A stretch of DNA of 64,000 nt, from NCBI GenBank assembly GCA_018266575.1, contig JAFEAE010000015.1:1-64000 (forward strand). Reading direction: 5' to 3'. Both the position numbers and the translations under genes were made by a program. Below the pieces are notes generated by a model. It made no database searches and had not been told where the DNA came from. It worked only from the letters and a program-made list of their open reading frames with translations. This document shows positions 1,136-11,556 of the stretch, one piece after another. Each line of letters opens with the position of its first letter. Within the stretch, counting starts at the first letter, position 1. Source of the stretch: Bacteroidota bacterium. Its GTDB lineage: Bacteria; Bacteroidota; Bacteroidia; Chitinophagales; Chitinophagaceae.

Positions 1136-1167
1136 CTTGGTAGTTAACAAAAAAGCTTTCATATTTG
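1136..1167 (+). promoter_or_regulatory. Candidate promoter of the trp operon
   Basis: CATATTTG at 1160-1167 matches the Bacteroidota -7 consensus TAnnTTTG at all but the first base, and CTTGG at 1136-1140 sits about 19 bases upstream as a weak -33 element. If used, transcription would start around 1172-1175, essentially on the A of the leader-peptide ATG. This is a pattern match only. Confidence 0.4.
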
Positions 1168-1174
1168 CAATGCA

Positions 1175-1237
1175 ATGAAACAAATTCAACTCAATATTCA
1201 GTGGTGGTGGCATACAAACCTTTTCCGGGGCTTGTAA
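1175..1237 (+). CDS. trpL: trp operon leader peptide (20 aa, three consecutive Trp codons)
   Basis: A 20-codon ORF, MKQIQLNIQWWWHTNLFRGL, ends in TAA at 1235. Codons 10-12 (1202-1210) are TGG TGG TGG, which is very improbable by chance and typical of ribosome-mediated attenuation leaders. It lies 284 bases upstream of trpE and directly in front of a competing antiterminator/terminator structure. The peptide itself probably has no function. Its translation measures charged tRNA-Trp: a ribosome stalled on the Trp codons would leave 1226-1233 free to pair downstream, whereas a ribosome reaching the stop codon would cover it. An ATG at 1170 in another frame stops after two codons, so 1175 is the start. 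Confidence 0.9.
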   Translation: MKQIQLNIQWWWHTNLFRGL

Positions 1238-1279
1238 GCAGCTATTGTTGTTTATTGAATAAAAATATTCAAAGCCCCG
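1226..1279 (+). promoter_or_regulatory. trp attenuator: antiterminator pairing
   Basis: CGGGGCTT at 1226-1233, the last codons of the leader peptide, is exactly complementary to AAGCCCCG at 1272-1279. The second segment is also the 5' arm of the terminator hairpin, so the two structures exclude each other. This is a compact three-segment attenuator in which the leader coding sequence itself supplies the antiterminator strand. Confidence 0.82.
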
Positions 1280-1297
1280 AGTAAATCGGGGCTTTTT
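1271..1297 (+). terminator. trp attenuator: intrinsic terminator
   Basis: AGCCCCGA (1273-1280) and TCGGGGCT (1286-1293) form a perfect GC-rich 8-bp stem with a five-base loop, extended by A-T pairs and followed by a T run to 1297. It precedes trpE by about 220 bases and is not at the end of any gene except the leader peptide, so it fits a regulated premature terminator. Confidence 0.88.
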
Positions 1298-1424
1298 GTT
1301 TGCCAGGATTTTGACCTGATTTTGCTGATTCATCTGAATCAGAAGAATCGGTTTTAATAAGGATAAAATCGAGGTTCAGATGGAGAATATTAAATCGGTT
1401 GTATGTTGCCGTTAGTGAAACGAT

Positions 1425-2936: not shown

Positions 2937-2998
2937 TTCATAGTTCGTAGTTGATGGCTCATAGCAATGAACCGTCAACTATGAACCATCAACCAAGC
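2936..2998 (+). repeat. trpE-trpG word-repeat hairpin
   Basis: GTTGATGGCTCATA near 2950-2963 pairs with TATGAACCATCAAC near 2980-2994 with one mismatch. Flanking sequence repeats GTTCATAGTTCGTAGTTGATG-type words. It lies between the trpE stop and the trpG start, so it may form a stem in the polycistronic mRNA. Confidence 0.6.
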
Positions 2999-3001
2999 AA
3001 A

Positions 3002-3616
3002 ATGAGAATATTAGTATTTGACAATTACGATTCGTTTACGTACAACTTAGTGCACTTGGTGGAAAAGATTTTGCATCAGAAAGTAGATGTATATCGTAAC
3101 GACCAGATTCCGATGGAGCAAGTGACAGTATATGATAAAATAATTTTATCGCCCGGGCCCGGCATTCCGGAAGAAGCAGGGTTATTGCTTCCATTGATCA
3201 AAGAGTATGCTTCAACAAAATCTATACTGGGCGTATGTTTGGGGCACCAGGCAATCGGAGAGGCGTTTGGTGGAAAGCTAATTAACCTTTCAACGGTGTA
3301 TCATGGAGTGGCAACGGACGTGAGTATCGTCAATGGTCAATCGTCAATGATGAGTGAGAAAGATTCACCGCTTGCCCTTCACCCTTCACGGGAATTATTT
3401 GATGGGTTGCCTGATAAATTCGAAGTCGGCCGTTATCACAGTTGGGTAGTGAGTGATGAAAATTTCCCGAAAGAATTGGAAGTAACTGCACGTGATGATA
3501 ATAATTATATCATGGCGTTGCAACATAAAACGTATGATGTACAAGGAGTGCAGTTTCATCCGGAAAGTGTGCTGACGCCATTGGGAGAAAAGATTATGAG
3601 GAATTGGCTTGTCTGA
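3002..3616 (+). CDS. trpG: Anthranilate synthase component II (glutamine amidotransferase)
   Basis: Class I glutamine amidotransferase that supplies ammonia to TrpE. The ATG at 3002 is chosen because the product then begins MRILVFDNYDSFTYNLVHL as in the family; in-frame starts back to 2951 would translate the intergenic hairpin. The nucleophile elbow GVCLGHQAIG supplies the catalytic Cys, and VQFHPESVLT supplies the His and Glu. Length 204 aa, slightly long: between HGVATDV and ELFDGLPDKFEVGRYHSW there are about 20 extra residues (SIVNGQSSMMSEKDS and on) encoded by 3324-3395, made of GTCAATGGTCAATCGTCAAT and CCCTTCACCCTTCAC words as found between genes. Confidence 0.96.
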   Translation: MRILVFDNYDSFTYNLVHLVEKILHQKVDVYRNDQIPMEQVTVYDKIILSPGPGIPEEAGLLLPLIKEYASTKSILGVCLGHQAIGEAFGGKLINLSTVYHGVATDVSIVNGQSSMMSEKDSPLALHPSRELFDGLPDKFEVGRYHSWVVSDENFPKELEVTARDDNNYIMALQHKTYDVQGVQFHPESVLTPLGEKIMRNWLV

Positions 3617-3618
3617 AA

Positions 3619-3727
3619 CCCCCAACCCCTGAAGGGGCATTGGTGAATCGCAAATAAAAATTAATACTAATAACCTTCTGAATTTCTTAGAGATTTGGAA
3701 CAAAATTCCCCTTTAGGGGACAGGGGT
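3619..3727 (+). repeat. CCCCTnAAGGGG paired element between trpG and trpD
   Basis: CCCCCAACCCCTGAAGGGG (3619-3637) and CCCCTTTAGGGGACAGGGG (3708-3726) are imperfect reverse complements about 70 bases apart, and each arm is itself a small palindrome. The second arm ends just before the trpD ATG. A single arm of the same element occurs inside the hisH coding sequence at 8994-9012. Confidence 0.65.
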
Positions 3728-4720
3728 ATGAAAAAAATCTTACAATATTTATTTGAATACAAAACATTAACACGCGAACTGGCGAAAGAAGCACTCGTAA
3801 ATATTTCCAAAGGAGCGTATAATGAAAGTGAGATCGCTGCATTTATAACGGTGTTCCTTATGCGCAGTATCACCATTGATGAATTGCAGGGATTTCGGGA
3901 TGCACTTTTGGAATTATGTGTTCGTGCAGATTTGAACGGAAATGAAACGATTGATATTGTTGGCACCGGCGGTGACGGGAAAAATACATTTAATATTTCA
4001 ACCCTTGCTTGTTTTATTGTTGCGGGTACCGGGCAAAAAGTGGCGAAGCACGGAAATTACGGAGCGTCGTCTATCAGTGGCGCATCGAATGTAATGGAGC
4101 AATTGGGATATAAATTCAAAAATGACAAATCACAATTGAAGAAAGAAGTGGAAGAAGCAAATATTTGTTTCCTTCATGCCCCGCTTTTTCACCCGGCTTT
4201 GAAAACTGTAGGGCCAATAAGAAAAAATTTAGGTGTTCGGACTTTCTTCAACATGCTTGGGCCAATGGTTAACCCGGCATTTCCGAAGTTTCAATTGGTC
4301 GGGGTTTATAATCTGGAGATGGCAAGAATTTATAATTATTTATTACAACAAACTGAAGGTACATTCACGATCATTCATAGTTTGGATGGATATGATGAAA
4401 TATCATTGACGAACGATACAAAAGTCATCACCAATGAAGGAGAAAAAATAATGACGCCGGAGCAATTGGGAAAGCGAATGGTGGAGGCAACTGATATTTC
4501 AGGAGGTGCGACTGTTGAAGAAGCAGCAAAGATTTTCCTGAAGATTTTACATGGCGAAGGAACGTGGGCGCAGAATGCCGTAGTACTGGCAAATGCTGCT
4601 ATGGCCTTGCACTGTACGGGGAATTATAAAACGTATGACGATGCATATCTTGCATCGGTAGAAAGTTTAGAGAGTGGCAGCGCGTATGAAGCGTTGAAGA
4701 AGTTGGTGGCGTTGCAATAA
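3728..4720 (+). CDS. trpD: Anthranilate phosphoribosyltransferase
   Basis: Transfers phosphoribose from PRPP to anthranilate. The 330-aa product carries the glycine-rich PRPP loop GTGGDGKNTFNIST and the following KHGNYGASSISGASNVMEQLG typical of the family; an N-terminal helical domain precedes it. The ATG at 3728 (MKKILQYLFEYKTL) is preferred to a TTG at 3695 because the extra residues would come from the CCCCTTTAGGGG repeat. No Shine-Dalgarno is visible, as usual in this phylum. Confidence 0.97.
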   Translation: MKKILQYLFEYKTLTRELAKEALVNISKGAYNESEIAAFITVFLMRSITIDELQGFRDALLELCVRADLNGNETIDIVGTGGDGKNTFNISTLACFIVAGTGQKVAKHGNYGASSISGASNVMEQLGYKFKNDKSQLKKEVEEANICFLHAPLFHPALKTVGPIRKNLGVRTFFNMLGPMVNPAFPKFQLVGVYNLEMARIYNYLLQQTEGTFTIIHSLDGYDEISLTNDTKVITNEGEKIMTPEQLGKRMVEATDISGGATVEEAAKIFLKILHGEGTWAQNAVVLANAAMALHCTGNYKTYDDAYLASVESLESGSAYEALKKLVALQ

Positions 4721-4723
4721 AGT

Positions 4724-4800
4724 ATGAACTATAAACTATGAAGTATGAGTTCTTCAAAATGCAACACACTTCATAGTTCATAGTTCATAATTCATACTTA
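4724..4800 (+). repeat. trpD-trpC word-repeat hairpin
   Basis: AAGTATGAACTATAAACTAT and onward (about 4726-4755) is an imperfect reverse complement of the stretch about 4768-4800, which repeats TTCATAGTTCATAGTTCATA. The stem could be about 30 bp and fills the whole gap up to the trpC start. Each arm is a run of degenerate 7-9 base words. Confidence 0.65.
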
Positions 4801-4806
4801 ACAAAC

Positions 4807-5598
4807 ATGAATATTTTAGATACGATAATTGAAAGTAAGAAGTTGGAAGTAAGAAGTAAGAAGTCTGAAGTAGGAATTTCTGACCTGGGGAAATCTGAAT
4901 TTTTTTCAAGGGAAACTTTGTCGCTGAAAGAATTTTTATTGAATGATAATAGAACCGGGATCATTGCGGAATTCAAAAGGCGATCACCATCAAAGGGAAT
5001 TATTAATGGTGATGCTGATGTGGTAAAAATAACTTCTGCGTATGCAGATAATGGAGCATCAGCACTATCAGTATTAACAGATGAAATTTTTTTTGGTGGA
5101 AGTTCAAACGATTTAATACAGGCAAGAGTCAATCAAATACCAATCCTTAGAAAAGATTTTATTGTGGACGAATACCAGGTCGCAGAGGCAAAATCAATTG
5201 GTGCCGATGTTATTTTATTGATCGCTGCCTGTTTATCGCCACAACAAGTGAGGATATTAGCGAAATTTGCAAAAGAGTTACAGCTTGAGGTTTTATTAGA
5301 ACTGCATGCAGAAGAAGAACTCGGACATATTTGCGATGAAACGGAAATTGTGGGCATCAATAACCGCAACCTGAAAACCTTTGAAGTGGATATCGACAGA
5401 AGTCTGCGGATGGCAGAAAAAATACCTGCAGAAAAAATTAAAGTAGCAGAAAGCGGAATCAGCTCGGTAGAAAATATAACCTTATTCAAACAACATGGTT
5501 TTCGCGGTTTTCTGATAGGCGAAAATTTCATGAAAGAAAAAGACCCTGCGGTTGCATTTGCCTCATTTGTAAACAAACTAAAAACTGTTTCTCCATGA
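4807..5598 (+). CDS. trpC: Indole-3-glycerol-phosphate synthase
   Basis: TIM-barrel enzyme (263 aa) converting CdRP to indole-3-glycerol phosphate. IIAEFKRRSPSKG gives the catalytic Lys/Glu strand, ILRKDFIVDEYQV the second catalytic Lys region, and GINNRNLKTFEVD and VAESGISS the phosphate-binding end. Residues 10-23 (ESKKLEVRSKKSEV) are encoded by 4834-4878, a near-tandem AGAAGTNNGAAGTAAGAAGT repeat not expected in this family, again resembling an intergenic word repeat captured by the gene. The stop overlaps the trpF start (ATGA), so translation of the two is probably coupled. Confidence 0.97.
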   Translation: MNILDTIIESKKLEVRSKKSEVGISDLGKSEFFSRETLSLKEFLLNDNRTGIIAEFKRRSPSKGIINGDADVVKITSAYADNGASALSVLTDEIFFGGSSNDLIQARVNQIPILRKDFIVDEYQVAEAKSIGADVILLIAACLSPQQVRILAKFAKELQLEVLLELHAEEELGHICDETEIVGINNRNLKTFEVDIDRSLRMAEKIPAEKIKVAESGISSVENITLFKQHGFRGFLIGENFMKEKDPAVAFASFVNKLKTVSP

Positions 5599-6230
5599 GG
5601 GTAAAAGTTTGTGGCATGACCCAACTCGACCAGGTAAAAAAACTGGAGGAGATGGGCGTAGACTTAGCAGGTTTTATTTTCTATCCGAAATCGCCACGTT
5701 ACGTTGCGAAACATCTGAGCGGCGAACAATTGAAAAAAGCAAAAGTGAGGTTGGGAAAAGTGGGTGTGTTTGTTCACGCAACGTATGAAGAGGTGATGAA
5801 ATGCGTGGATGATTACGGTTTGGATATGGTGCAACTGCATGGCGACGAAACACCGCGTTTTTGTGAGCAACTCGCAAATTATGTCACGGTGATTAAAGTA
5901 TTTCGCTTTGCAGAAAATGACCCGGTGGAATGGATCATGAAACCGTATGAAGATTCCTGTGACATGTTTTTGTTCGATACGCTCGGAGTCGGTTATGGCG
6001 GAACCGGAAAAAAATTCAATTGGGATATGTTGAAAACGGTACCAATGGATAAACTGTTTTATTTAAGTGGCGGCATTGAACCGGAAGACGCAGATAAATT
6101 AAAAGAGTTTGAGCATGGGCCCTGGGCAAAAAAATTATTTGCTGCTGATATCAATAGCAGGTTTGAGATTTCACCGGGTGTAAAGGATTTAAAAAAGGTG
6201 GAAAAGTTTGTGAAGGAATTGAAGCAGTAG
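5595..6230 (+). CDS. trpF: Phosphoribosylanthranilate isomerase
   Basis: Amadori isomerase (211 aa) acting between TrpD and TrpC. It begins MRVKVCGMTQLDQV, with the catalytic Cys in KVCGMT, and has the catalytic Asp in FLFDTLGVGYGGTGKKFNWD. The C-terminal LSGGIEPEDADKL and AADINSRFEISPGVKD are the phosphate-binding segments. It overlaps trpC by 4 bases. A 121-base gap holding dispersed repeat copy B separates it from trpB. Confidence 0.97.
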   Translation: MRVKVCGMTQLDQVKKLEEMGVDLAGFIFYPKSPRYVAKHLSGEQLKKAKVRLGKVGVFVHATYEEVMKCVDDYGLDMVQLHGDETPRFCEQLANYVTVIKVFRFAENDPVEWIMKPYEDSCDMFLFDTLGVGYGGTGKKFNWDMLKTVPMDKLFYLSGGIEPEDADKLKEFEHGPWAKKLFAADINSRFEISPGVKDLKKVEKFVKELKQ

Positions 6231-6240
6231 CCGAATTTAA

Positions 6241-6320
6241 TATCTACTGTACAAGAGTGCGACCTGCCTACCGGCAGGCAGGCGCAACGATGTTTAATAG
6301 AATTACAAATGCTGGTTACC
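6241..6320 (+). repeat. Dispersed intergenic repeat, copy B (palindrome-filled)
   Basis: Core TGTACAAGAGTGCGA, then the 20-base near-palindrome CCTGCCTACCGGCAGGCAGG (6263-6282), then CGCAACGATG, ending in CAAATGCTGGTTACC. It occupies most of the trpF-trpB gap. Confidence 0.8.
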
Positions 6321-6351
6321 AAAAAATAAAACTAAAATTATCAGGGAAAAA

Positions 6352-7572
6352 ATGATAAACCGAATTACATCTCTCAACAAAGGCACCTACAAACAACCGA
6401 ATATTTTCGGGTATTACGGAAATTTCGGTGGCGCTTACATTCCCGAGATGCTTCACAGAAATGTGGAAGAATTGAAGACGAGGTATATTGAAATCATGTA
6501 TGAAGATTCTTTTCAAAAAGAATTTTATGCATTGCTGAAAAATTATGTCGGCCGTCCGACGCCGTTATATCTCGCAAAACGCCTGAGTAAAAAATACAAT
6601 ACGGAAATTTTTCTGAAGCGTGAAGATCTTTGTCACACCGGTGCGCATAAGATCAATAATACGATCGGGCAGATTTTATTAGCGCAACGTCTCGGGAAAA
6701 AAAGGATCATCGCAGAAACAGGAGCGGGGCAACATGGAGTTGCAACTGCAACGGTATGTGCGTTGAAAGGTGTTGAATGCATTGTGTACATGGGAGAAAA
6801 AGATATTGAACGTCAGGCGCCGAATGTTGCACGAATGAGAATGCTCGGTGCGAAAGTAATACCTGCAACAAGTGGAAGCAAAACACTGAAAGATGCAACA
6901 AATGAAGCGATCCGCGATTGGATCAACAATCCTAACGACACACATTATATCATCGGAAGTGTTGTTGGCCCACATCCGTATCCGGATATGGTGGCGCGTT
7001 TTCAAAGTGTGATCAGCGAAGAAATAAAAAAACAACTCAAAGAAGAAACAGGAAGCGAATTGCCGACGCATGTGATGGCTTGCGTTGGCGGTGGAAGCAA
7101 TGCGGCCGGTGCGTTCTATAATTTTTTAGATGACATGAGTGTTGAATTGATTGCCGTTGAAGCTGCCGGCCATGGTGTGCAAAGCGGAATGAGCGCTGCA
7201 ACGACACAACTCGGAAAACCGGGCGTTTTGCATGGCAGCAAAAGTTTGGTGATGCAAACCGAAGATGGCCAGGTTGTAGAGCCGCACAGTATTTCAGCGG
7301 GTTTGGATTATCCGGGAATCGGCCCGATGCATGCGCATTTGTTTGAAAGCGGACGTGCAAAATTTTTAAGTGCAACCGATGATGAAGCATTGAATGCAGC
7401 ATTCCTTCTTGCAAAACTCGAAGGAATTATTCCTGCGCTCGAATCTGCACATGCACTTGCTGCGCTTGAACAAGTAAAGTTCAACGAAAAAAATACAGTG
7501 GTGATTTGCCTGAGCGGAAGAGGCGATAAAGATTTGAGTACATACATGCGGGAATTGGAAGTGCGTGGATAG
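6352..7572 (+). CDS. trpB: Tryptophan synthase beta chain
   Basis: PLP enzyme (406 aa) that condenses indole with serine. [11 protein letters not shown] contains the PLP lysine (K100); [15 protein letters not shown] carries the catalytic Glu segment; [12 protein letters not shown] is the phosphate cup; ending [14 protein letters not shown]. The N-terminus [15 protein letters not shown] is the standard TrpB1 form that works in an alpha2-beta2 complex with TrpA, encoded next. Confidence 0.98.
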
Positions 7573-7587
7573 AAATATTTTTTTATT

Positions 7588-7700
7588 GTATAACCAACAT
7601 TAGTAATTCTGTTAAGTATCGTTGCGCCTGCCTGCCGGTAGGCAGGTCGCACACTTGTACCGAAGAATTTTTATTGAGCTTCAGTTTAGCTTCGCAAAAC
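7588..7700 (-). repeat. Dispersed intergenic repeat, copy C (palindrome-filled, inverted)
   Basis: Inverse orientation to copies A and B: ATCGTTGCG, then the near-palindrome CCTGCCTGCCGGTAGGCAGG (7627-7646), then TCGCACACTTGTACCGAAG and TTATTGAGCTTCAGTTT. It lies in the trpB-trpA gap. Confidence 0.8.
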
Positions 7701-7730
7701 ATACATGCATTAAATCGAAATGGAAAATAA

Positions 7731-7857
7731 ACAATCAACATTCAATAGTCAATACTCAAGATTCAAGTAAAGAAAATTGAGTAAATGTTGCGGTGTTCTT
7801 TTTTGAAGGTGTATTTAATTTGAACATTGAATATTGAGTGTTGATTATTGAATGTTA
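7731..7857 (+). repeat. trpB-trpA word-repeat hairpin
   Basis: The arm at 7731-7768, made of CAATCAACATTCAATAGTCA-type words, is an imperfect reverse complement of 7820-7857, made of TGAATATTGAGTGTTGATTA-type words. About 50 bases separate the arms. It ends just before the trpA start. Confidence 0.6.
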
Positions 7858-7868
7858 TAAAAATAAAG

Positions 7869-8639
7869 ATGAAAAGATTAGAATCATTATTCCAAAAAAA
7901 GAATCAAAACGTTCTCAACGTCTATTGCACTGCCGGTTTTCCTGAATTAGAAAGCACATTGCCGGTGATGAAAGCTTTGCAACAAAACGGGGCGGATATT
8001 ATTGAACTCGGTATGCCTTACAGCGATCCGCTTGCAGACGGACCTGTGATACAATCCAGTGGTGGTAAGGCTTTGAACAATGGTATGACAATTGCCAAAC
8101 TGTTTGAGCAGTTAAAAGGTTTTAGCAATGAAATGAATATTCCGGTTGTCCTAATGGGTTATATGAACCCTGTTCTTCAATACGGGTTTGAAAAATTTTG
8201 TAAGGCGGCTTCAGAAGCCGGTATCGACGGATTGATATTGCCCGATCTTCCTGAACATGAATTTGAAACCGAGTACGGAGCGATCATTAAAAAATATAAT
8301 CTCAATTTTATTTTTTTAGTAACACCCGAAACATCAGAAGAACGAATAAAAAAGCTGGATGAATTAAGCACCGGTTTTTTATATGCTGTTTCATCTTCGT
8401 CGATTACAGGAAAAGATAAAGACTTTTCACCGGTAGAAAAATATTTGCAGCGGTTACAAAATCTAAAATTGAAAAACCCGATCCTGGTTGGTTTTGGAAT
8501 TAAAGACAAGCAAACATTTGAATCAGCATGCAGATATGCAAACGGTGCAATAATAGGCACAGCATTTATCAAAGCAATTGAAGATTCAAATAATATAGAA
8601 CAATCAACAAAAGAATTTCTTAATTCTATTTTGAAATAA
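7869..8639 (+). CDS. trpA: Tryptophan synthase alpha chain
   Basis: Cleaves indole-3-glycerol phosphate to indole, which is channelled to TrpB. IIELGMPYSDPLADGPVIQ holds the catalytic Glu and Asp; VGFGIKDKQTFESACRYANG and GTAFIKAIE close the barrel. The ATG at 7869 (MKRLESLFQKKNQNVLNVYC, 256 aa) is preferred; a TTG at 7848 lies in the hairpin. Last trp gene; only 32 bases and no terminator separate it from hisH, so readthrough into his genes is likely. Confidence 0.97.
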   Translation: MKRLESLFQKKNQNVLNVYCTAGFPELESTLPVMKALQQNGADIIELGMPYSDPLADGPVIQSSGGKALNNGMTIAKLFEQLKGFSNEMNIPVVLMGYMNPVLQYGFEKFCKAASEAGIDGLILPDLPEHEFETEYGAIIKKYNLNFIFLVTPETSEERIKKLDELSTGFLYAVSSSSITGKDKDFSPVEKYLQRLQNLKLKNPILVGFGIKDKQTFESACRYANGAIIGTAFIKAIEDSNNIEQSTKEFLNSILK

Positions 8640-8671
8640 ATCAGTTTAATCAGTAAAATCAGGATAAGATC

Positions 8672-9268
8672 GTGGTTCTGACAATAATAAAATACAACGC
8701 AGGCAATATTCAATCAGTGCTTTATGCACTCGAACGCATCGGAGTTTCGGCAACCGTTACAGACCATCATGAAAAAATTAAATCTGCAGATAAAGTAATT
8801 TTTCCGGGAGTTGGCGAGGCGAGCACTGCAATGAATTATCTCAAAGAAAGAAATTTAGATTCAGTGATAAAGGAGTTGAAACAACCCGTTCTAGGTATTT
8901 GTCTCGGTATGCAACTGATGTGCAGACATTCGGAAGAGAATGATACTAATTGCCTTGGAATCTTTGATGAAAACGTGAAGCATTTTACAAACTCCCCTTT
9001 AGGGGTTGGGGGTAAAATTCCGCAGATAGGTTGGAACAATATTTATGATTTAAAATCAAAATTGTTTGAAGGCGTTGCTGAGAATAGTTACTGCTATTTT
9101 GTGCATGGATACTATGCAGCATTAGGCGAACACACTATTGCAACGACAAATTATATTCAACCATATAGTTCGGCATTGCATAAAAATAATTTTTACGGAG
9201 TTCAGTTTCACCCGGAAAAAAGTGCAACAGCAGGAGAGCAAATTTTGAAGAATTTTCTTGAACTATAA
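8672..9268 (+). CDS. hisH: Imidazole glycerol phosphate synthase, glutamine amidotransferase subunit
   Basis: Supplies ammonia to HisF. It starts with GTG at 8672 (VLTIIKYNAGNIQSVLYAL); there is no better ATG in frame. The class I amidotransferase triad is visible: GICLGMQLM (Cys) and FHPEKSATAGEQ (His, Glu). 198 aa. About five extra residues in FTNSPLGVGGKIPQIGWNN are encoded by a CCCCTTTAGGGGTTGGGGG element (8994-9012) otherwise seen between genes. It sits between trpA and hisA. Confidence 0.95.
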   Translation: MVLTIIKYNAGNIQSVLYALERIGVSATVTDHHEKIKSADKVIFPGVGEASTAMNYLKERNLDSVIKELKQPVLGICLGMQLMCRHSEENDTNCLGIFDENVKHFTNSPLGVGGKIPQIGWNNIYDLKSKLFEGVAENSYCYFVHGYYAALGEHTIATTNYIQPYSSALHKNNFYGVQFHPEKSATAGEQILKNFLEL

Positions 9269-9285
9269 ACAATCAGAATTCATAC

Positions 9286-10005
9286 ATGCAAATCATTCCG
9301 GCAATAGATATAATAGAAGGCAAATGTGTGAGATTGACTGAGGGCGATTATTTACAAAAGAAAATTTACAACGAGCATCCGTTGGATGTGGCAAAACAAT
9401 TTGAAGATGCCGGTTTGCAGCGCCTTCATTTGGTTGACCTCGACGGTGCAAAAGCAGGTGCAGTAAAAAACTGGAAGGTGCTGGAAACAATAGCCGGCAA
9501 AACATCATTGAGTATTGATTTTGGCGGTGGCATAAAAAAAGAAGATGATGTAAACATTGTTTTTAACTCAGGTGCAGCATTTGCAACTGTTGGAAGTATT
9601 GCAATAAAGAACGAAACCGAATTTGTAAAATGGCTTTTAATATTCGGTGCGGAAAAATTTTTATTGGGAGCAGATGTGAAAGAGGAAAAAATTGCAATCA
9701 ACGGATGGATGGAAAAAACAGATGTGTGGGTGTATGATTTTATAGAGAAATATGTTAATCACGGAGTGAAACAGATTTTTTGTACAGACGTAAGCAAAGA
9801 TGGGAAGTTAGAAGGGCCCTCAATTGATTTGTATAAAAATATCATTGCAAAATTTCCTGATTTATATTTTATCGCAAGCGGCGGGGTTAGCTCAATAAAA
9901 GACCTGGAAGAGTTGCAGGCAATAGGATGTAAAGCTGCAATCGTTGGGAAGGCTATTTATGAAAACAAAATCAGTATCTCCGATCTGAAAAACTTTAAAC
10001 CTTAA
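9286..10005 (+). CDS. hisA: ProFAR isomerase
   Basis: 1-(5-phosphoribosyl)-5-[(phosphoribosylamino)methylideneamino]imidazole-4-carboxamide isomerase, a (beta/alpha)8 barrel of 239 aa. Strand 1, IIPAIDIIEGKCVRL, carries the catalytic Asp; the second Asp is in FCTDVSKDGKLEG; phosphate loops are DFGGGIKKEDDV and ASGGVSSIKDLEEL. 17 bases after hisH and 7 bases before the exporter gene, so clearly in the same operon. Confidence 0.97.
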   Translation: MQIIPAIDIIEGKCVRLTEGDYLQKKIYNEHPLDVAKQFEDAGLQRLHLVDLDGAKAGAVKNWKVLETIAGKTSLSIDFGGGIKKEDDVNIVFNSGAAFATVGSIAIKNETEFVKWLLIFGAEKFLLGADVKEEKIAINGWMEKTDVWVYDFIEKYVNHGVKQIFCTDVSKDGKLEGPSIDLYKNIIAKFPDLYFIASGGVSSIKDLEELQAIGCKAAIVGKAIYENKISISDLKNFKP

Positions 10006-10012
10006 ACAACAA

Positions 10013-10642
10013 ATGATCCCGGATAATTTTTGGATGTTCGCATTAACCGCATTGTTGCTTAACCTTACTCCCGGCAACGATATGCTTTTTGTAATTGCAA
10101 GAAGTTCTTCGCAGGGAAGCAAAGCCGGAATTATTTCTGCGTTTGGGATTATGGCGGGATGCGCTGTGCACATGTTTGCCGCAGTTGCAGGATTGTCTGC
10201 AATTATTGCAAGTTCGGCAGTTGCATTCAGCATTATCAAATATATCGGAGCCGCTTATTTGGTTTACCTGGGAATTCAATCAATACTTGATAAAACAAAT
10301 AAGCTCAATGTTCATCGGTCAATTCAAAAAACATCATATAAAAAAATATTCTGGCAGGCGGTTGTGACTAATGTGCTTAACCCCAAAGTGGCGTTATTTT
10401 TTTTAGCTTTTCTTCCGCAGTTTATCAATACGAAATCAGGAAACGCAACCTTGCAAATTCTTTTTCTTGGTGTGTGGTTTAATATTGGCGGAACATTGGT
10501 GAATATAGCTGTTGCACTGTTGTTTGGCAGGATTGGAAAATGGTTGGGGCATTCAAACAAATTTGTACAATGGCAGAAAAAAATTACCGGCGGGATTTTA
10601 ATTGCACTCGGAATTAAGGTTGCACTGAGTTCAAGAAAATGA
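10013..10642 (+). CDS. LysE/RhtB-family amino-acid exporter
   Basis: Inner-membrane protein of 209 aa with the family start FALTALLLNLTPGNDMLFVI (the TPGND motif) and about six hydrophobic helices. Family members export amino acids such as Lys, Thr or homoserine lactones, or related compounds. Placement between hisA and hisF, 7 bases after hisA, suggests export of histidine, tryptophan or an intermediate, but the substrate cannot be read from sequence. Confidence 0.88.
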   Translation: MIPDNFWMFALTALLLNLTPGNDMLFVIARSSSQGSKAGIISAFGIMAGCAVHMFAAVAGLSAIIASSAVAFSIIKYIGAAYLVYLGIQSILDKTNKLNVHRSIQKTSYKKIFWQAVVTNVLNPKVALFFLAFLPQFINTKSGNATLQILFLGVWFNIGGTLVNIAVALLFGRIGKWLGHSNKFVQWQKKITGGILIALGIKVALSSRK

Positions 10643-10648
10643 TGTTTG

Positions 10649-10725
10649 AATACCAGCATTAGTTTTCATGGAATCATCGTTGCGTCGCAATCCTTTCATC
10701 GGTAGTGCAAGAATTGAACTGTGGT
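10649..10725 (-). repeat. Dispersed intergenic repeat, copy D (diverged, empty site)
   Basis: Contains TACCAGCATTAGTTTTCAT and ATCGTTGCGTCGCAATC, with the internal site empty, then degenerate sequence. It lies in the exporter-hisF gap. Confidence 0.6.
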
Positions 10726-10797
10726 TTTAATTTTAAATTGGCGAGTAACTAAATAGTACTACTATTAGTTCGGAAAATTTCAAATCTCAAATTTTCA

Positions 10798-11556
10798 ATG
10801 TTAACTAAACGCATTATCCCTTGCCTGGATATCAAAGATGGCAGAACTGTAAAAGGAACAAACTTTGTTAACCTTCGTGATGCAGGTGATCCTGTTGAAT
10901 TAGGTGCGTTGTACGCACAGCAAGGCGCTGATGAATTGGTTTTTTTAGATATCACTGCAACTGTTGAAAAAAGAAAAACTTTAAGCGACCTGGTAAACAG
11001 GATTGCACATCACATTAATATTCCGTTTACGGTCGGTGGTGGGATTTCTTCTGTGGAAGATGTGAGTGTGTTGTTGCAAAATGGTGCGGATAAAATCTCT
11101 GTAAATACTTCTGCTTTTAAAAGGCCTCGGTTGGTAAATGAATTATCAAAAGAATTCGGAAGCCAATGCGTGGTGCTTGCTATCGATACAAAAAAAGAAG
11201 AAGATGGTGAATGGTATGTGTATTTGAATGGCGGAAGGACAAAGACCGATGCAAAATGTTTTGAGTGGGCAAAGCAGGCAGTTGATCTCGGTGCCGGAGA
11301 GATCCTGCTTACATCCATGAATCATGACGGAACAAAACAAGGTTTTGCGTTGGATATTACCCGAACTTTATCTACGAAGTTACCAGTGCCAGTGATTGCG
11401 AGTGGTGGTGGTGGAACGATGGAACATTTTGTAGACGTGTTTGAAAAAGCAGAAGCTGATGCAGCATTAGCGGCAAGTATTTTTCATTTTAAGGAAATTA
11501 CAATACCAGACCTAAAACAATATTTGAGCAAACAAAATATTGTGGTAAGAAATTAA
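10798..11556 (+). CDS. hisF: Imidazole glycerol phosphate synthase, cyclase subunit
   Basis: Partner of HisH; makes IGP and AICAR from PRFAR and ammonia. 252 aa barrel: [16 protein letters not shown] has the first catalytic Asp, VLAIDTKK the second, with phosphate loops [14 protein letters not shown] and [13 protein letters not shown]. Separated from the exporter by 155 bases containing repeat copy D. Confidence 0.97.

Follow-up and report, generated by a model that had tools for sequence, protein, structure and literature searches.

The DNA preceding trpE in this member of the Chitinophagaceae (Bacteroidota bacterium, assembly GCA_018266575.1, contig JAFEAE010000015.1) very probably controls the trpEGDCFBA operon by ribosome-mediated transcription attenuation at a leader-peptide ORF, for which folding models predict the classical 1:2/2:3/3:4 layout. 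Three features that characterize trp attenuators as a class were found: a small ORF in which Trp codons are clustered lies immediately ahead of the trp operon, an antiterminator (2:3) and an intrinsic terminator (3:4) exclude each other and are kept by covariation, and a 1:2 hairpin holding the Trp codons is indicated by both prediction and covariation. The type of switch is known, and its family-wide version falls below the cut-off of every current RNA-family model. The evidence lies in these parts, in how they are conserved and covary, and in their predicted thermodynamics; from it, ribosome stalling, termination and the response to tryptophan are inferred. All coordinates refer to the window, i.e., the whole stretch of DNA analyzed (64,000 nucleotides, positions 1 to 64,000 of the contig, + strand), and all features described lie on the + strand.

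The leader ORF, its hairpins and their conservation

The leader ORF, trpL (1175-1237), consists of 20 codons that encode MKQIQLNIQWWWHTNLFRGL, starting with the ATG at 1175 and ending with the TAA at 1235-1237. It contains three consecutive TGG codons at 1202-1210, exactly where the initial annotation had placed them; these form the proposed stall site and also belong to the 5' side of the 1:2 hairpin. The Trp-codon pattern occurs only once in the genome, namely at this locus. When the 175-nt leader was folded, its predicted stability exceeded that of all 200 dinucleotide shuffles (z = -4.67). Downstream are trpE, the first structural gene (1521-2936), and trpG, trpD, trpC, trpF, trpB and trpA (2951-8639). 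In the region that follows (8639-11556), hisH and hisA are found directly after trpA, across a gap of only 32 nt, so that the His genes may be transcribed through from the trp attenuator; an additional ORF, by guess a transporter, is situated between hisA and hisF.

The terminator claimed to follow the leader ORF is also present, with its 5' arm (segment 3, AAAGCCCCGA) at 1271-1280, a GTAAA loop, its 3' arm (segment 4, TCGGGGCTTT) at 1286-1295, and a T-rich tract at 1292-1302. The antiterminator strand, segment 2, is provided by the last leader codons, since CGGGGCTT at 1226-1233 is the exact 8-nt reverse complement of AAGCCCCG at 1272-1279, as had been noticed at the outset. When the 27 nucleotides that run from the Trp codons through the stop codon were shuffled, a complementary run of 8 nt was reached by 4 of 20,000 shuffles.

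For comparison, relatives were collected as TrpE homologues, one genome per species, which yielded 109 trpE upstream regions. In 104 of them, a short ORF with its Trp codons grouped together was found, although a few of these may be chance ORFs, and the peptide motif was nearly always ...WWWHTN...; the parts of the attenuator and their spacing are conserved across the family. Inspection of six loci that had no convincing WW leader (L085, L088 and L095-L098) revealed the same terminator and GGGG segment, together with leaders containing a single Trp codon (...NGWH...), which possibly represent a less sensitive switch. In a class-wide sample of trpE upstream regions, a WW, WRW, WCW or WLW leader was recognized in most of about 25 families, and the leaders inspected had a terminator-like hairpin on their 3' side; this sample suggests that such leaders are the rule among Bacteroidia whose TrpE is of this kind.

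The initial annotation had seen no separate 1:2 pause hairpin and had described the attenuator as a three-segment design unlike that of E. coli; neither claim held. A 1:2 hairpin is predicted at 1191-1258, in which 1199-1208 (the Trp codons and their flank) pair with 1241-1250, and 1191-1196 with 1253-1258, while at its apex 1219-1222 pair with 1227-1230 and would sequester the antiterminator core. When leaders were folded without the terminator, 94 of 95 loci had the Trp codons paired with RNA past the stop codon. Counting the 1:2 and 3:4 helices jointly and ignoring kinship, 13 pairs had changes on both sides, a number reached by none of 500 shuffles, and the cells with such changes numbered 98, versus 42 in the shuffles. 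The Rfam Trp_leader model also aligned with both helices. Taken together, the prediction, the both-side changes and this alignment indicate that the layout is the classical one. Had the attenuator consisted only of 2:3 competing with 3:4, with no 1:2 hairpin, the two structures involved would be just those that appear real here; nonetheless, the near-universal pairing of the Trp codons, the both-side changes in the 1:2 helix and the match of Trp_leader to the same 1:2 hairpin make such a three-segment arrangement very improbable. To be counted against the four-segment attenuator that we favor, the 1:2 fold in the clade of the window includes many G-U pairs.

The 2:3 pairing is centered on a core of 4 nt, each position of which forms a standard pair in 80-82 of 82 distinct aligned sequences; the complementarity first noted between 1226-1233 and 1272-1279 is therefore retained, at its core, in at least 80 of the 82. 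Pairing at positions flanking the core is less regular, which counts against our explanation. Where the core varies, it shifts in segments 2, 3 and 4 together, from GGGG/CCCC/GGGG to GAGG/CTCC/GAGG. The complete three-way change, segment 4 included, is seen in L023 and L057, and there are intermediates in which segment 3 alone has changed from C to T (L003, L072 and L074), or in which segment 2 has additionally changed from G to A (L070). From these, the order of change would appear to be segment 3 first, segment 2 next, and segment 4 last. Furthermore, segment 2 pairs more strongly with its own segment 3 than with a foreign one (mean -12.9 versus -11.8 kcal/mol; equaled in 0 of 5000 permutations, uncorrected for kinship).

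The reading frame of the core is variable: 61 leaders have it in frame 1, 15 in frame 0 and four in frame 2, whereas in five the core is located at or after the stop codon; one of these, L111, is probably a chance run of G. In nearly all leaders, however, the core begins 13-17 nt 3' of the last TGG. Since its frame varies and its spacing is constant, the core must be kept by RNA pairing and not for the peptide. This frame-shift evidence and the compensatory changes were given preference over a reversed-leader control for the 2:3 duplex, a weak test given that GGGG reads the same in both directions. A different antiterminator strand, lacking the GGGG core, was observed in Chitinophaga (L101, L105, L106 and L108-L110) and in Ferruginibacter and its relatives (L050, L055 and L065); its apparent complement is the loop and inner arm of the terminator, as for GCTGTGTAAC and GTTACACAGC.

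Ribosome-masked folding and the proposed switch

The initial annotation had proposed that a stalled ribosome frees the end of the leader, and that a ribosome at the stop codon masks the same strand. To model the stalled ribosome, the sequence was kept unpaired up to about 12-14 nt past the start of the last Trp codon. With this mask, 91 of 95 loci formed 2:3 before segment 4 was made; when the ribosome was instead placed at the stop codon, none of the 95 did so, and the terminator formed in 94. In the window itself, again before segment 4 was made, the probability of 2:3 was 0.97 with the stalled ribosome and 0.0 with the ribosome at the stop. Masked folding and conservation thus lend support to the proposal. 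At full-length equilibrium, the terminator was favored in the window even with a stalled ribosome; considering that it always wins under these conditions, the switch must be a kinetic one. A kinetic decision is likewise assumed for E. coli. It is to be noted, and was counted against our explanation, that before segment 4 is made and with no ribosome present, 2:3 is favored at equilibrium in the window, though 1:2 is transcribed first.

The following sequence of events is proposed. The transcript would start about 3 nt 5' of the leader AUG, judging from the position of the promoter (see below). When charged tRNA-Trp is scarce, the ribosome would stall on the UGG codons at 1202-1210 and cover segment 1, leaving 1226-1233 free to pair with 1272-1279 before segment 4 exists; with 2:3 formed, no terminator would arise, and trpE would be transcribed. 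When Trp is ample, the ribosome would reach the stop codon (1235) and cover 1226-1233, which would allow the 3:4 hairpin to form and cause RNA polymerase to stop near 1297.

Relation to known trp leaders

At curated thresholds, no Rfam match was found for the window or for 20 relatives. The two relevant models both score 31.6 bits here, which is below the gathering threshold of 49 for RF01692 (Bacteroid-trp; E 0.11) and of 41 for RF00513 (Trp_leader). Weinberg et al. (2010, PMC2864571) listed Bacteroid-trp for Bacteroidetes, as an RNA that is probably cis-regulatory, and it was noted upstream of trp in F. psychrophilum (PMC6414381). Of 247 Bacteroidota genomes, 24 contained Bacteroid-trp at a score above its cut-off, almost all of these being members of one flavobacterial-type family; eight genomes from the family of the window contained none. 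It is nevertheless the closest relative within the phylum, as here, too, a Trp leader peptide lies upstream of trp genes in Bacteroidota: both have a short WWW leader that is close to the promoter and followed by a terminator, and in both the leader end or stop region is complementary to part of that terminator. The part differs, however; in Bacteroid-trp leaders, which are of the type MKTILNNTWWWNNLRQTS, the complement of segment 2 (GTCGTGA) is formed by the terminator loop and 3' arm (TCACGAC), whereas the 5' arm is used here; many of them also have the ATG farther from the -7 box. In the genus Chitinophaga, the choice of pairing, as read from the sequence, appears similar to that of the flavobacterial-type leaders.

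The E. coli type is represented by RF00513, which aligns over its full length with 1199-1300 and recovers the same 1:2 and 3:4 hairpins. In E. coli, the stop codon of the trp leader precedes segment 2. Here it comes after the core of segment 2, and in most species it is located 7-9 nt past the start of that core. This position of the stop codon and the Bacteroidota-type promoter right at the leader start codon are the real differences from E. coli.

A model built from the trp leaders analyzed here, R1, scored about 80 bits at the window and more than 70 bits only in its family; outside the family, no score was higher than 42. These values bear on the possibility that the terminator is constitutive and the short ORF a product of chance, with trpE under another promoter or under protein regulation. 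Plain intergenic terminators of this genome do reach about 35 bits with R1, but the margin separating them from the window, together with the finding that every part, and the spacing between the parts, is conserved across the family, renders this possibility extremely improbable in comparison with attenuation. The numerous R1 matches of 30-42 bits outside the family were not accepted as homologues, as those fetched had no convincing WW leader, and two weaker matches in the same genome, C17 and C24, turned out to be simple terminators that follow ordinary genes.

In F. psychrophilum, which is of the same phylum but of another family, signs pointing to leader-peptide attenuation have been reported upstream of operons for amino-acid biosynthesis (PMC9723704), and that study offered no sequence model reaching Chitinophagaceae. 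Our literature search, the reach of which was limited, found no description for Chitinophaga; an earlier prediction for Chitinophagaceae may exist. The present results extend leader-peptide trp attenuation from the flavobacterial type of Rfam to Chitinophagaceae, and provide many varying homologues with which each segment can be mapped.

Promoter position and other leaders of the genome

A Bacteroidota-type promoter is recognizable at 1137-1167, with a -33 box, TTGG, at 1137-1140, a spacer of 19 nt, and a -7 box, CATATTTG, at 1160-1167. In F. psychrophilum, the promoter box spans -12 to -5 (PMC9723704); placed accordingly, the motif predicts a transcript start at about 1172 and hence a 5' UTR of 3 nt. 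Relatives were scanned for a TTTG-like box, 19-20 nt, and nAnnTTTG, both boxes being required. In 85 of 95 leaders, such a promoter ended 4-9 nt 5' of the ATG, compared with one of 474 ordinary ORFs of at least 150 amino acids from the same loci, a control set in which spurious frames and genes internal to operons are counted as well. In most leaders, 7 nt separate the -7 box from the ATG, and the 5' UTR predicted from promoter position was 0-5 nt in most relatives. Such short 5' ends are rare in the phylum: leaderless mRNAs amount to only 5.5% in F. psychrophilum (PMC9723704), and 5' UTRs of less than 10 nt to 3.7% in B. thetaiotaomicron (PMC7366714).

A similar 5' end is known from S. meliloti, where the leader transcript rnTrpL begins at the trpL ATG and has functions in trans (rnTrpL/peTrpL, PMC7298713); the 5' end predicted here lies almost at the ATG. 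By analogy, the leader peptide or the terminated small RNA might also act in trans, with attenuation being only part of the function, and the great constancy of WWWHTN would agree with this. However, the constancy of the HTNS codons is accounted for by RNA pairing, since CAUAC and CUCC pair with GUAAUG and GGGG, and the C-terminus of the leader shifts frame or is lost among relatives, which makes an additional role in trans unlikely. The nearly leaderless start that is predicted for the attenuator is its most interesting unproven feature, and the conserved spacing between promoter and AUG makes it possible to test directly how ribosomes of Bacteroidota bring about the coupling on which attenuation depends.

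Comparable leaders were found elsewhere in the genome. Upstream of hisG (L187, G000:C10), a His leader peptide, MKFFAHIHHHHTYPNW, is followed by a terminator and has a TACTTTTG box some 9 nt 5' of its ATG; the 5' arm of this terminator is complementary to the final codons plus stop (GGTAAGC) of the leader. Upstream of a pheA-type prephenate dehydratase gene (L188, G000:C13), a Phe/Tyr leader peptide, MITTKAYGFFYFYFYFYFKSSRESFC, is likewise followed by a terminator, the 5' arm of which, TTCCCGGC, is complementary to the late leader codons GCCGGGAA. In the stalled-ribosome model, these leader ends of his and phe pair with the terminator 5' arms; since they, too, use their own end as the antiterminator strand, this looks like a habit of the attenuators of this genome. 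We consider it an even bet that the attenuators of several amino-acid operons in Bacteroidota (here trp, his and phe) share one nearly leaderless architecture. The promoter would then set the transcript start at the leader AUG, the last leader codons and stop would serve as the antiterminator strand, and ribosomes, in a phylum with little Shine-Dalgarno use and rare leaderless mRNAs, would bind right at the 5' end and thereby remain coupled to RNA polymerase.

Upstream of ilvD, no leader was found. Upstream of an aspartokinase-homoserine dehydrogenase gene (L194, G000:C1), a possible Thr/Ile leader with a GTG start and no clear T run overlaps an AACCC/GGGTT hairpin and ends in ...SAIGTTIITTL.
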